Source: Actinomycetota bacterium (lineage in GTDB: Bacteria; Actinomycetota; Acidimicrobiia; Acidimicrobiales; Ilumatobacteraceae). Taken from it: a stretch of DNA of 60,118 bases. The position numbers and the translations under genes were made by a program. Numbering within the stretch: position 1 is the first letter of the stretch; each line of letters begins with the position of its first letter. The stretch lies in contig VGCD01000011.1 of NCBI GenBank assembly GCA_016870215.1, positions 1 to 60,118 of the forward strand. The letters are read 5' to 3'. Positions 49,222 to 54,225 of this stretch are shown here, one piece after another. Under the pieces are notes generated by a model, which worked only from the letters and a program-made list of their open reading frames with translations, searched no databases and was not told where the DNA came from.

Positions 49222-50952
<1,731 letters not shown>

Positions 50953-50973
50953 TCAGTCTCTTCTTGGAGCAAC

Positions 50974-51005
50974 AAAAAACCCCCTGGCACTTGGCGCAGG
51001 AGGTT
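50974..51005 (-). terminator. leuA attenuator (intrinsic terminator in the leader)
   Basis: On the minus strand AACCTCCTG (51005-50997) can pair with CAGGGGGTT (50986-50978), nine pairs including one G-U, followed at once by a run of six T (50979-50974). It lies 29 bases after the leader-peptide stop. A second possible stem, CAGCAGC with GCTGCTG, lies between the peptide and the terminator and could serve as the competing hairpin. Confidence 0.8.
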
Positions 51006-51033
51006 CGACAGCAGCGATATGCGGCTGCTGCCG

Positions 51034-51069
51034 TTACATAAGAAGAAGGAGGCTGGAAGCAAACGTCAT
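51034..51069 (-). CDS. leuL: leuA leader peptide
   Basis: An 11-residue ORF, MTFASSLLLLM, with codons CTC CTT CTT CTT in a row just before the attenuator. Ribosome stalling at the Leu codons when leucyl-tRNA is scarce should favour read-through into leuA. The ATG at 51069-51067 lies eight bases after TAGTGT (51083-51078), so the peptide is probably translated from a leaderless mRNA. Confidence 0.8.
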   Translation of the reverse strand: MTFASSLLLLM

Positions 51070-51077
51070 CGCCTTGA

Positions 51078-51106
51078 ACACTACAGGCGTCGTTGCGCTC
51101 TGACCA
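51078..51106 (-). promoter_or_regulatory. Predicted leuA promoter
   Basis: TGGTCA (51106-51101) and TAGTGT (51083-51078) are separated by 17 bases on the minus strand. Transcription would start at or very near the leader-peptide ATG. Confidence 0.5.
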
Positions 51107-51133
51107 CCCATGTGGGACGTGCTCTCACGCGTC

Positions 51134-51162
51134 GCCGGGCACGTACCCGGCCGCCACGTGGC
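51134..51162. repeat. Two adjacent inverted repeats after the homospermidine synthase gene
   Basis: GCCGGG (51134-51139) pairs with CCCGGC (51146-51151), and two bases on GCCACGTGGC (51153-51162) is a perfect 10-base palindrome. They lie 12 to 40 bases past the synthase stop and upstream of the leuA promoter, so they could end the synthase transcript or bind a regulator of leuA. No T-run is present. Confidence 0.45.
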
Positions 51163-51173
51163 AGCACCGTGAT

Positions 51174-52604
51174 TTATGGGCAGAGGAAGTTGCCGAACTG
51201 CCACGGGTCGGAACGGTCGAGCGTTGCCGCAAGATCACTCCATTGGTCGAACACGTCGCGACGCGTCCGTAACGGGTCCCAGTCGACCGCATCAGACCAG
51301 ATGGTGCCGAGATACGGACTAGCTGCATCGAGGATGAAGTCATGCGGCAGTTCGTCGGGGACTTTGAGGCCTTGCATTGGCTCGGCGATCATCCACTTCA
51401 CTGCTGCGAGAACCGATGCAGCCACTTGAAGTGTCGTTGCACTTTGGTGTGGCACCTTGCTGCGGGCTTCGTTGATGTCGAGGATTGAACCAGTCCACCA
51501 CGCGTTGTAGTCGTGACCCATGAGCAACACGCCGAGCTGGTCTTCGCCTTGAACAATCTCGTCGTTCAGAATGCGTTGCTCAGGTTGCATCTCATAGTTC
51601 CGCATAAGCAATTCATGGATGCTCATGATCGCGACATCGCTCGGACAGTAGGCGTAGTGCACCGTCGGTCGATACGTCGCTCGGCCGTCTTTCCACACGG
51701 TCAGGTGATCGCTCATCGTGTAGGACTCGCCGTGCCTGATGACGAGTCCCCGGATTTCACCAGCAGGAACCCAGCTGCGAACCCATGTCTCCATGCCGGG
51801 CTGAGCAATACAAATTTGATTGCGTGGTCCATCGTCTTCGTGTTGCCACGCGTTCTTCGGAAGTGTCTTTTCGTGAGTGCCCCAACCAAGTTCAGCTGGT
51901 GCAATCCCTTCCTCATAGAGGCCATCAACCGACCAGGTGTTGACAAATTCGTTGACACGCTTTGGCTCAACCGCAAGTTGAGTGTCGCGTTCAGAGATGT
52001 GAATCACCTTTGTGCCGGTGAGCATTGCAAGGTGGTTGAACGCCTGCGATGCGAGCGCGGACTCAAGTGCCACGGCACGATCTCCGGTTGCGGTGCCATC
52101 TGTCAGCATCCGCTTGCTCATCTGCGTCAGAGCACGCTTTACGAAGTGGCTCACGAGGCCTGGATTTGCGCCATGTTCCACGACGGCAGAGGCGCCAGGC
52201 TTACCCCACTTCGCCTTCAAGCGGCGAAGATCTTGATGACGCACGTACAACGTGCGATCACGTGGGTCTGTGGATGCGAGATCTTCATACGGATCCCACA
52301 CTTCGACTGACGTGTTGAGATAGCGCACGTTGTGGTCGTGGCACCACTGCAAAATGGTCGGACAGTCGATGTTCCACGCGAGGTCGAGCAAGATGTCGCC
52401 ATCTTTGCAACGAGATGACAAGAACTCATCGAGGTTCTCGCGAGTCAGTCGACCCGACTCGTACGTGACACCTTTGGCGAGTGCATCAGCAACACGGTGG
52501 CGATTGTCGACGAAATCGACGATGTGAATGGATGACGGGGCTATGCCGAGGTCATCAATGAGAAGTGGAACTGTGCATTGAGCAACGCTTCCACACCCCA
52601 GCAC
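51174..52604 (-). CDS. hss: Homospermidine synthase (saccharopine-dehydrogenase superfamily)
   Basis: Predicted to make sym-homospermidine from putrescine (and spermidine) with NAD. The Rossmann start LGCGSVAQCTVPLLIDDLG is followed by VVEHGANPGLVSHFVKRALT, a segment typical of bacterial homospermidine synthases, and HDYNAWWTGSILDINEARSK. GTG 52604 is the first ordinary start codon, but it cuts the first beta strand. In-frame codons upstream encode SALLPARIL and run back to a TAG at 52658-52656 with no ATG, GTG or TTG between. Initiation from a rare codon (ATA or ATC) or readthrough of that TAG is therefore possible. 476 residues from GTG. Confidence 0.85.
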   Translation of the reverse strand: MLGCGSVAQCTVPLLIDDLGIAPSSIHIVDFVDNRHRVADALAKGVTYESGRLTRENLDEFLSSRCKDGDILLDLAWNIDCPTILQWCHDHNVRYLNTSVEVWDPYEDLASTDPRDRTLYVRHQDLRRLKAKWGKPGASAVVEHGANPGLVSHFVKRALTQMSKRMLTDGTATGDRAVALESALASQAFNHLAMLTGTKVIHISERDTQLAVEPKRVNEFVNTWSVDGLYEEGIAPAELGWGTHEKTLPKNAWQHEDDGPRNQICIAQPGMETWVRSWVPAGEIRGLVIRHGESYTMSDHLTVWKDGRATYRPTVHYAYCPSDVAIMSIHELLMRNYEMQPEQRILNDEIVQGEDQLGVLLMGHDYNAWWTGSILDINEARSKVPHQSATTLQVAASVLAAVKWMIAEPMQGLKVPDELPHDFILDAASPYLGTIWSDAVDWDPLRTRRDVFDQWSDLAATLDRSDPWQFGNFLCP

Positions 52605-52655
52605 GAGGATTCGAGCGGGGAGGAGAGCAGACGAATTGGCGTTGATGGGTATCGG

Positions 52656-52802
52656 CTACTTCGACTCGCTGACGAATTCGCCGTCAATCAACTCACTGAG
52701 TTCCCGTGAAAAAGTCGGTTCGTCCGGAACCAGCAAATGTTGCCAGTCGTACGGCTGACCTTTCAGACCTCGAGTCTGTGTGCCATCCAATGTGTCGTCC
52801 AT
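52656..52802 (-). CDS. Short ORF upstream of and in frame with hss, 48 residues
   Basis: ATG 52802-52800 has the strongest Shine-Dalgarno sequence I saw here, GGGAGGAG (52816-52809), at good spacing. The peptide begins MDDTLDGTQTRGLKGQPYDW, is acidic, and ends in ESK before TAG. It is in the same frame as hss, 17 codons further on. It could be a regulatory upstream ORF, a small independent protein, or the first part of a readthrough fusion of about 540 residues. I recognise no family. Confidence 0.65.
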   Translation of the reverse strand: MDDTLDGTQTRGLKGQPYDWQHLLVPDEPTFSRELSELIDGEFVSESK

Positions 52803-52808
52803 AGTGAA

Positions 52809-52953
52809 CTCCTCCCGAAGGTGATAGAGGGTTCGCCCGTGGCGGGTGGCGCACGACGTTGCCAGTTGTAACTGGCCCGTGTCGTACGGGTGCGCTCGGT
52901 GCTAATCCGTAAGTGTGTGCTTCCTTTCTGCACGGAACCATTCCGTAACAGGC
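52809..52953 (-). ncRNA. Structured 5' leader of the hss transcript, candidate cis-regulatory RNA
   Basis: The leader can form hairpin ACGGAA/TTCCGT (loop of three, 52932-52946). It can also form a three-helix junction: outer stem GCGCAC/GTGCGC (52895-52890 with 52854-52849), hairpin CCCGT/ACGGG (52890-52876) and hairpin GCCAGTT/AACTGGC (52876-52861). A last helix, CCTCT (52830-52826) with GGAGG (52815-52811), covers the Shine-Dalgarno sequence. An alternative pairing, ACGAC with GTCGT, competes with the outer stem. This is what a translational riboswitch looks like; I could not match it to a known class. Confidence 0.5.
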
Positions 52954-52959
52954 TCGTGA

Positions 52960-52988
52960 ACATTAACGACTGTGAGCCCGCACGACAA
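52960..52988 (-). promoter_or_regulatory. Predicted promoter of the hss leader
   Basis: TTGTCG (52988-52983) and TAATGT (52965-52960) are 17 bases apart on the minus strand. Transcription would start near 52953, giving a leader of about 150 bases, in contrast to the mostly leaderless genes around it. Confidence 0.55.
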
Positions 52989-53016
52989 TTATTTCGAGCG
53001 GTACCCTTGGTCACAC

Positions 53017-54225
53017 ATGTCGTCTCGACACCCCCAACCCTCTGACTCTTCCTCGCCTGCTGTGTCGTTACCCACCGGTTTCGCCGAACTTGGCGTGCCC
53101 GAAGAAGTCGATCGTGGCCTCGCCGCTGCCGGATTCTCCGCTCCGTTTGCCATCCAAACCGAGGCCATTCCGGTCGCTCTCAGTGGGGAAGACGTGTGTG
53201 GCCGTGCGCGCACAGGTAGCGGCAAAACACTCGCATTTGGTGTGCCGATGATCGCTCGCATCGACAAGGCAGCGCGCAAGCGAGCTCCTCGTGGCTTGGT
53301 GCTCGTGCCGACTCGTGAGCTTGCCCTTCAGGTGTCAGAAGTTCTGGGGCCTATTGCCACCGAATGCTCCGTCAAGGTGCTTGCCGTTTACGGCGGTGCT
53401 TCGCGCGATGACCAGATCGTGGCTCTCGACAAAGGCATTGACATCGTCGTTGCCACACCGTTGCGGTTGATTGACCTCATCAAAGCGAAAGAGGTCGACC
53501 TCGAGGACATTCAGTGTGTGGTGCTTGACGAAGCCGACCGAATGGCTGATGAAGGTTTCACTCCACAGGTCGAATGGATTTTGCGTCACGTCACTGGTGA
53601 ACACCAGACCATGTTGTTCAGCGCCACGCTCGACGGACAGGTCGGCAACTTGGTTCGTCGTTACATGAAGAATCCGCGCGAAGTGTCAATCGACGCGCCG
53701 ACCGACACCGTCGGCACGATGCATCACCTGTTTCTCGCGGTGCACAAGATGGACAAAGACAAAGTCATTGCCGCAGTTGCAACTGCTGGCGGAAAGACAG
53801 TGGTGTTCTGTGACACCAAGCGCCTCTGTGATCGCGTGACAGACAATCTTCGTGATCTCAACGTGAAGGCCTCGGCAATTCACGGTGACCTCACGCAGGC
53901 AGCGCGTGAGAAAGCTCTGACACGTTTCACCAAGGGTGAAATCACCGTCCTAGTCGCCACCGACGTTGCAGCTCGCGGAATCGACATCGATGATGTTGCA
54001 GTTGTTGTGCATTACGAACCACCAATCGATCACAAGACATACCTGCACCGCTCGGGTCGTACAGCACGCGCAGGACGCGATGGTTGGGCCGTGACATTGG
54101 CTGAATACAACCAGCACACGACGTGTCGCATCATTCAGCGCGCACTGCGTCTTCCTACGCAACCTCCCTTTGAGGTGTTCAGCAACGACCCACGGTTAGT
54201 GGATCTGCGCAAGTTTCTTGACTGA
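53017..54225 (+). CDS. DEAD-box RNA helicase
   Basis: ATP-dependent RNA remodelling enzyme of 402 residues with all main motifs: Q-motif region (PFAIQTEAIPVALSGED), Walker A ARTGSGKT, PTREL, VVLDEADRMADEG, SAT in LFSATLDGQ, and HRSGRTARAGRDGW. It lacks a long basic C-terminal tail, so it is a minimal helicase. ATG 53017 lies nine bases after TACCCT (53002-53007). It diverges from the hss leader. Confidence 0.94.
   Translation: MSSRHPQPSDSSSPAVSLPTGFAELGVPEEVDRGLAAAGFSAPFAIQTEAIPVALSGEDVCGRARTGSGKTLAFGVPMIARIDKAARKRAPRGLVLVPTRELALQVSEVLGPIATECSVKVLAVYGGASRDDQIVALDKGIDIVVATPLRLIDLIKAKEVDLEDIQCVVLDEADRMADEGFTPQVEWILRHVTGEHQTMLFSATLDGQVGNLVRRYMKNPREVSIDAPTDTVGTMHHLFLAVHKMDKDKVIAAVATAGGKTVVFCDTKRLCDRVTDNLRDLNVKASAIHGDLTQAAREKALTRFTKGEITVLVATDVAARGIDIDDVAVVVHYEPPIDHKTYLHRSGRTARAGRDGWAVTLAEYNQHTTCRIIQRALRLPTQPPFEVFSNDPRLVDLRKFLD

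Follow-up and report, generated by a model that had tools for sequence, protein, structure and literature searches.

The window, that is, the whole 60,118-nt stretch of DNA analysed here, carries on its minus strand a structured leader which, judged by sequence comparison, is a conserved cis-acting RNA for a small gene, with the predicted homospermidine synthase gene hss as the second gene where it is present. This leader is probably a new orphan RNA that controls translation of the microprotein–hss unit, and possibly a riboswitch. It occupies positions 52803–52952 (minus strand), as delimited by a covariance-model match (52827–52952) and by alignment, and is presumed to form the 5′ untranslated region of the small gene. 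The sequence-only reading had placed a leader of about 150 nt ahead of hss. The length is borne out by the stretch from about 52952 to an ATG at 52802; the first gene behind it, however, is not hss but an unannotated open reading frame of 48 codons plus TAG (MDDTLDGTQTRGLKGQPYDWQHLLVPDEPTFSRELSELIDGEFVSESK; 52656–52802, minus strand, with the ATG at 52802 and the TAG at 52656), recognized by its frame, its family matches and its pN/pS ratio. The hss gene follows in frame after the TAG.

The leader is predicted to begin with helix 1 (52928–52951, minus strand), a 5′ hairpin of the form CUG...CAG that is followed by an invariant AAAGG. Next come a long arm (52835–52902, minus strand), composed of helix 2 (52894–52902 with 52835–52843) and helix 3 (52875–52888 with 52850–52862), and helices 5/6 (52806–52834, minus strand), which lie over the Shine-Dalgarno (SD) sequence GGGAGGAG (52809–52816). 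All 15 leaders have the same GAAC/GUUC base in the SD helix, in agreement with the earlier proposal of a covered SD, and this conserved helix is a candidate expression platform. Its inner pairing varies between single-sequence folds. No terminator-like site was reported in the leader by a scan of 50900–53100. Of the fold first proposed, the 5′ hairpin and the SD helix are retained, but conservation supports one long arm in place of a three-helix junction. The suggested competing pairing ACGAC/GTCGT does occur in the proposed order in the arm of the window and of L210, but only in these two of 15 leaders, and L036 has the opposite order. An alternative fold, CGG45–47:CCG55–57 with CCCG:CGGG, is as invariant as the chosen one; a competing local pairing of this kind, which uses the same bases, is what a two-state RNA might show, but it proves nothing.

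The comparative evidence comes from 15 distinct full-length leaders, the window's included, from two genera. Their alignment has 84 invariant columns out of 158, and 98.9% of the cells in the RNAalifold-based consensus structure used for the pairing test are paired. Six pairs are changed on both sides (four of the nine in helix 1 and two of the 11 in helix 3), as compared with 2.7 ± 1.0 in shuffled alignments, of which one in 500 scored as high. The double-changed cells number 18, a value reached by none of 500 shuffles, and controls slid by one to three columns gave zero or one double-changed pair. The covariation of stems among relatives that had been proposed as a check is thus found in helices 1 and 3. 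Further pair types were not unusual (14 versus 12.6 in shuffles; 98 of 500 as high). Helix 2 (seven pairs) shows zero variation, and since it and most of helix 5 and the SD helix base never vary, covariation is no test of them. The stem at the arm tip differs in sequence between the window and L210 and retains its pairing. Folding z-scores were −2.58 (181 nt) and −1.59 (154 nt) for the window and ranged from −0.60 to −2.38 in 14 relatives; folding energy alone modestly beats shuffles, and the strong evidence is comparative. A coding role for the invariant part of the leader was dropped because one-base indels among relatives shift the frame.

Leader identity was set against identity at four-fold degenerate sites of hss in the same pairs of loci. 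The values were 0.98 and 0.48 for window–L210, 0.89 and 0.28 for L007–L003, 0.71 and 0.44 for window–L003, 0.72 and 0.29 for L007–g3, and 0.63 and 0.41 for window–g3. When the window was compared with L003, L006, L007, L012 and L017, the whole leader was 0.63–0.72 identical, hss DNA 0.65–0.78 and four-fold sites 0.30–0.44. The whole leader is therefore conserved about as well as hss DNA between the window and its distant relatives, and the case rests on the four-fold sites and the close pairs. The comparison of the window with L215 (UBA2093) gave identities of 0.980 for the leader and 0.979 for the promoter, versus 0.816–0.832 for four larger genes and 0.165 for the helicase–leuD intergenic gap. 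The small gene is 0.932 identical in this pair and agrees at 45 of its 49 third positions, and the high identity reaches the start of the helicase gene; local recombination may thus contribute. It would not explain the conservation in the older leader pairs. In L003 (genome G181) hss is 88% identical to that of the window, while the leader is 0.89 identical to that of L007 and 0.71 to that of the window; between L007 and the window, hss identity is 68%. This pattern could reflect an exchange of hss from one lineage to another.

A covariance model built from 11 leaders was used for distribution searches, in which a strong full-length match was one with E < 1e-20. Such matches were found in 15 of the 32 genomes of g1, the window's genus, in two g3 genomes and in one g6 bin; the window's own genome has one. 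The leader on the g6-bin contig (G162 C300) is identical to that of G197, and this contig is perhaps mis-binned or chimeric. All 18 full-length matches adjoin and precede the microprotein gene, a single gene context. The order-wide search of 298 genomes returned two leader matches at E ≤ 0.01, both in g1/g3 and none outside. Weak matches from the family search in g4, g11, g13 and g14 (E 0.04–0.84) were taken as chance. A pattern scan of named genomes yielded 20 stretches, from which L214, L224 and L226 were dropped as unlike the leader, and the sole exact-pattern hit in viral contigs was a different sequence. Of 85 distinct upstream regions, 24 have the motif GAAAGGA no more than 160 nt from the small gene. 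Beyond g1 and g3 it was seen in six loci of g22 and in three of g11, in one of which it lies just at the SD, and some of these loci have a similar preceding hairpin. Because only two genera have the full leader, leader sequences are few and related.

That the element could not be matched to a known riboswitch class is borne out by the Rfam search: no Rfam 15 family matched the leader at gathering or relaxed thresholds (window positions 52750–53050, even at E ≤ 10), and a SAM-I-like aptamer was likewise without a match over these positions and at this threshold. The lone weak hit, Erse in L036, lies outside the leader and, with 16.6 bits, falls short of the cut-off of 138. None of the papers retrieved on homospermidine synthase or polyamine riboswitches and on riboswitches of Acidimicrobiia describes the leader, as far as their available portions go, and literature searches on Ilumatobacteraceae small proteins and on actinobacterial homospermidine synthase operons found nothing.

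The promoter-like pair TTGTCG-17-TAATGT is present exactly where it had been reported (52960–52988, minus strand). The window contains it a single time, and 100 shuffles did not produce it; a generic sigma-70 scan of 50900–53100 reported no site. By pattern match, the −35-like hexamer TTGTCG lies at 52983–52988 and the −10-like hexamer TAATGT, inside CGTTAATGTTC, at 52960–52965, both on the minus strand. The TTG of the −35-like hexamer is not kept among the g1 relatives compared; in other genera, many loci show GTAGAC/GTAGC at roughly this place. As to the −10-like hexamer, relatives have similar motifs (CGTTAGTTT, GTTATGTT or TTATGGT) at about the corresponding position. The presumed 5′ untranslated region keeps a constant position between a promoter-like site and the small gene, as judged from sequence. 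Palindromes resembling operators (TGACTCGTGAGTCAG, CTGATGAATCAGTGAGTAGC) precede the promoter in several genera (e.g. L013, L014, L026, L027 and L081); none was seen in the window. The neighbouring genes are leuA and pyrF downstream of hss and a divergent DEAD-box helicase gene upstream, with leuC and leuD beyond.

Within the family, sampled as 200 genomes, a joined query of small protein and hss matched in 112 genomes and a profile of the small protein in 111. Nothing convincing was found outside the family. The order search (298 genomes) gave seven microprotein matches, all in the family, and the phylum search (396 genomes) gave six in the family plus nine weak others (E 0.01–0.09), which were short, lay inside long open frames and were taken as chance. 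In viral contigs, 17 peptide-pattern matches included no microprotein relative. No meaningful match or recognized domain was found in Pfam, NCBIfam or PDB. Representatives from the loci read were aligned in sets of 25 and 30. In both, K, G, Y, D and W of the core KG-xx-YDW are invariant, and the G that precedes x-KG is shared by all members of the set of 30 and by at least 90% of the set of 25. For g1 with hss (21 pairs) the pN/pS ratio of the small-gene core came to 0.29; it was 0.26 in a g11 set, 0.19 (three pairs) and 0.27 (15 pairs) in g1 clades without hss, and 0.27 (45 pairs) in g23, whose loci lack an adjoining hss and two of whose 10 genomes have hss elsewhere. The small gene is coding and under purifying selection, also in lineages without hss, and from its sequence its product appears to form an undescribed small-protein family (x-KG-xx-YDW).

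At all 10 g23 loci fetched hss is absent and leuA lies downstream of the small gene, at a distance of up to about 0.45 kb in nine and of about 1.1 kb in L191. The microprotein was considered as a leuA leader since leuA follows the small gene in many loci. This was rejected as a general explanation because the fetched stretches of G002 (g3; L037, L203) and of G098 and G120 (L186, L187) hold no leuA. In the window, leuA is preceded by a predicted leader peptide of its own at 51034–51069 (minus strand), MTFASSLLLLM*, with four Leu codons and a hairpin behind it, which is probably a Leu attenuator. A comparable peptide end is seen before leuA in g23 loci, together with a terminator that includes a T run. 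Leu attenuators are described for Actinobacteria in the available part of one report (PMC1262725).

The hss frame (51174–52655, minus strand) encodes a product with two saccharopine-dehydrogenase Pfam domains that resembles solved homospermidine synthases (best chain 2ph5, 342 bits), from which the enzyme activity is predicted; NCBIfam gave no match at E ≤ 1. Its first canonical start in the window is a GTG at 52602–52604. Overlap of the small gene with the hss start is the rule, being found at 67 of 75 distinct junctions (47 GTGA, 19 ATGA and one TTGA). Of the remaining eight, one reads TAATG, another has a spacer and an ATG, and six, all in g1 and including the window, are in the same frame with an intervening stop. 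In a comparison of seven g1 loci, four (L004, L005, L006 and L007) lack any ATG, GTG or TTG ahead of the first conserved strand of the enzyme, and the window, L210 and L003 have such codons only within that strand. The g1 loci L009–L011, which lack leader and small gene, have a TTG right after an in-frame TGA. Thus hss may be re-initiated at a near-cognate codon, perhaps the ATA at 52650–52652 in the window. Read-through into hss seems less likely because three different stops (TAG, TAA or TGA) end the small gene. With the overlap at most junctions and the missing canonical start in part of g1, hss looks co-controlled with the small gene.

The genes do not always travel together. The microprotein and hss are both present in 86 of the 200 family genomes, the small gene only in 25, hss only in 17 (five of these being distant homologues of 37–40% identity) and neither in 72. 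The 25 among the 111 microprotein genomes include G029, where the contig runs out just within hss. Ten of the 18 full-length leaders are followed by the small gene and hss (window, L003, L005, L006, L007, L036, L037, L206, L210 and L218). Five others are followed by the small gene directly before leuA, without hss (L039, L042, L043, L208 and L209, in genomes G093, G136, G185, G856 and G860), and L040, on the doubtful G162 C300 contig, is a sixth such locus. The leader loci of G029 and of G197 C75 are cut by contig ends, and in L038 and L041 (g1) the leader itself is cut. Whole-genome searches of G093, G136 and G185 found no hss; in G856 and G860 none was found at the locus, the only place checked. 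Where a genome is incomplete, a copy elsewhere could have been missed. Conversely, three genomes (G160, G082 and G152) have hss without leader and microprotein. In L186 and L187 (G098 and G120, g11) about the first nine codons of hss are left beside an intact small gene. In G022 (g23; L202, L196) the small gene stays with leuA, and an hss of 60–61% identity lies elsewhere without a small gene; G143 is the other g23 genome with hss elsewhere. As sole target of the leader, hss is ruled out by the full leaders without hss at the locus. Since leader and small gene outlast hss, and the first gene encodes a small protein, the leader should not be taken simply for a homospermidine sensor.

In the preferred explanation, transcription would begin from the promoter at 52960–52988, and the first ~150 nt of the RNA would form the 5′ hairpin, the long arm and the SD helix. 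The conserved arm might read a signal, which could be a small molecule, a protein or the microprotein itself, and the signal would shift the balance between hidden and open SD and so set microprotein translation. Translation of hss would depend on coupling or re-initiation at the microprotein stop, so that the leader would also set hss output where hss is present. A ligand, if there is one, should relate to the role of the microprotein. A lysine of eIF5A is the aminobutyl acceptor for deoxyhypusine synthase. In a decidedly speculative elaboration, the leader could be a new metabolite-riboswitch class acting by SD sequestration, the microprotein could serve in homospermidine synthase physiology (e.g. 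as a partner of the enzyme or, by analogy with eIF5A, with the invariant Lys of GRKG/PGKG as aminobutyl acceptor), and hss in g1 could be made only via re-initiation at a non-canonical codon.

Several alternatives have to be weighed, with probabilities that overlap with that of the preferred explanation and are not meant to total one. The one given most credence, while still a minority view, is that the leader is a protein-bound autoregulatory site for the microprotein or another RNA-binding protein, and not a small-molecule aptamer. The adjacency of all 18 full leaders to the microprotein gene and the single strong site in the window's own genome are what autogenous control expects; the presence of the microprotein gene in many genera without the full leader and the lack of a known domain in its product speak against it. 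That the microprotein is merely a regulatory leader peptide for hss, acting by arrest or coupling as SpeFL or TnaC do, is improbable. Its place directly before hss, whose start it overlaps at most junctions, and the five residues invariant in 25 aligned members, would suit such a peptide, but the low pN/pS in g1 clades without hss and in g23, the intact small gene beside a nine-codon remnant of hss in g11, and the 25 microprotein genomes without an hss match show that its conservation is not confined to the company of hss.

The sequence-only reading had suggested a polyamine sensor. What stands of this is a structured, conserved leader and an hss that looks co-controlled; it is weakened by the loci with leader and small gene without hss and by the microprotein's first place. 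A polyamine (putrescine, homospermidine or spermidine) riboswitch with hss as main target, which is a narrower case of the preferred explanation, is accordingly a slim prospect. The 86 of 111 microprotein genomes with hss, and the overlap or shared frame that ties hss to the leader's gene, point towards it, as does the existence of such a bacterial class in the available part of one report (PMC10853860). The five full-leader loci without hss before leuA, the three genomes without an hss match genome-wide, the three with hss alone and the absence of a SAM-I-like match point away from it. The polyamine idea is possible and no longer the default, and a homospermidine-specific sensor is not favoured. 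Equally doubtful is a passive, stable 5′ untranslated region or RNA-stability element that does not switch. It would account for a 5′ hairpin beside the presumed start site and for the modest folding energy, but 84 invariant columns, against identities of 0.28–0.48 at four-fold hss sites, would seem to exceed the need of a stability hairpin.

The leader adds an RNA family that Rfam 15 lacks, represented by 15 sequences with stems open to testing, and the small gene a protein family that neither Pfam nor NCBIfam matches, with an invariant KG-xx-YDW core. Lineages that have leader and microprotein but not the enzyme set the function of these two apart from that of hss and reduce the range of candidate ligands; a ligand, if found, would make the leader a riboswitch class of its own. 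Several relatives lack an hss start codon, and in them stop-dependent re-initiation could be tested cleanly.

Among the closest known systems is the spermidine riboswitch, which according to the available part of its description is a variant SAM-I class with a four-stem fold, reported from Gram-positive species, acting by transcription termination and rare, with 13 examples (PMC10853860). The present leader is similar in being a leader RNA at polyamine genes with a rare, narrow distribution, but has neither an Rfam match nor a terminator-like site, and its likely platform is the SD. With the orphan riboswitch candidates of Rfam it shares conserved unpaired bases, covarying stems and a 3′ SD helix; unlike them, it matches no Rfam 15 family, has one gene context and is followed first by a microprotein gene. 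SpeFL and TnaC are leader peptides that respond to ornithine and tryptophan respectively. The microprotein gene resembles them as a small conserved open reading frame just ahead of a metabolic gene, but in several lineages it has outlasted that gene, and in g1 and g3 a conserved leader of its own precedes it. Finally, the hss product of the window is similar by sequence to the solved homospermidine synthases (PDB 2ph5, 4plp and others), whereas the start codon of its gene is non-canonical in part of g1.
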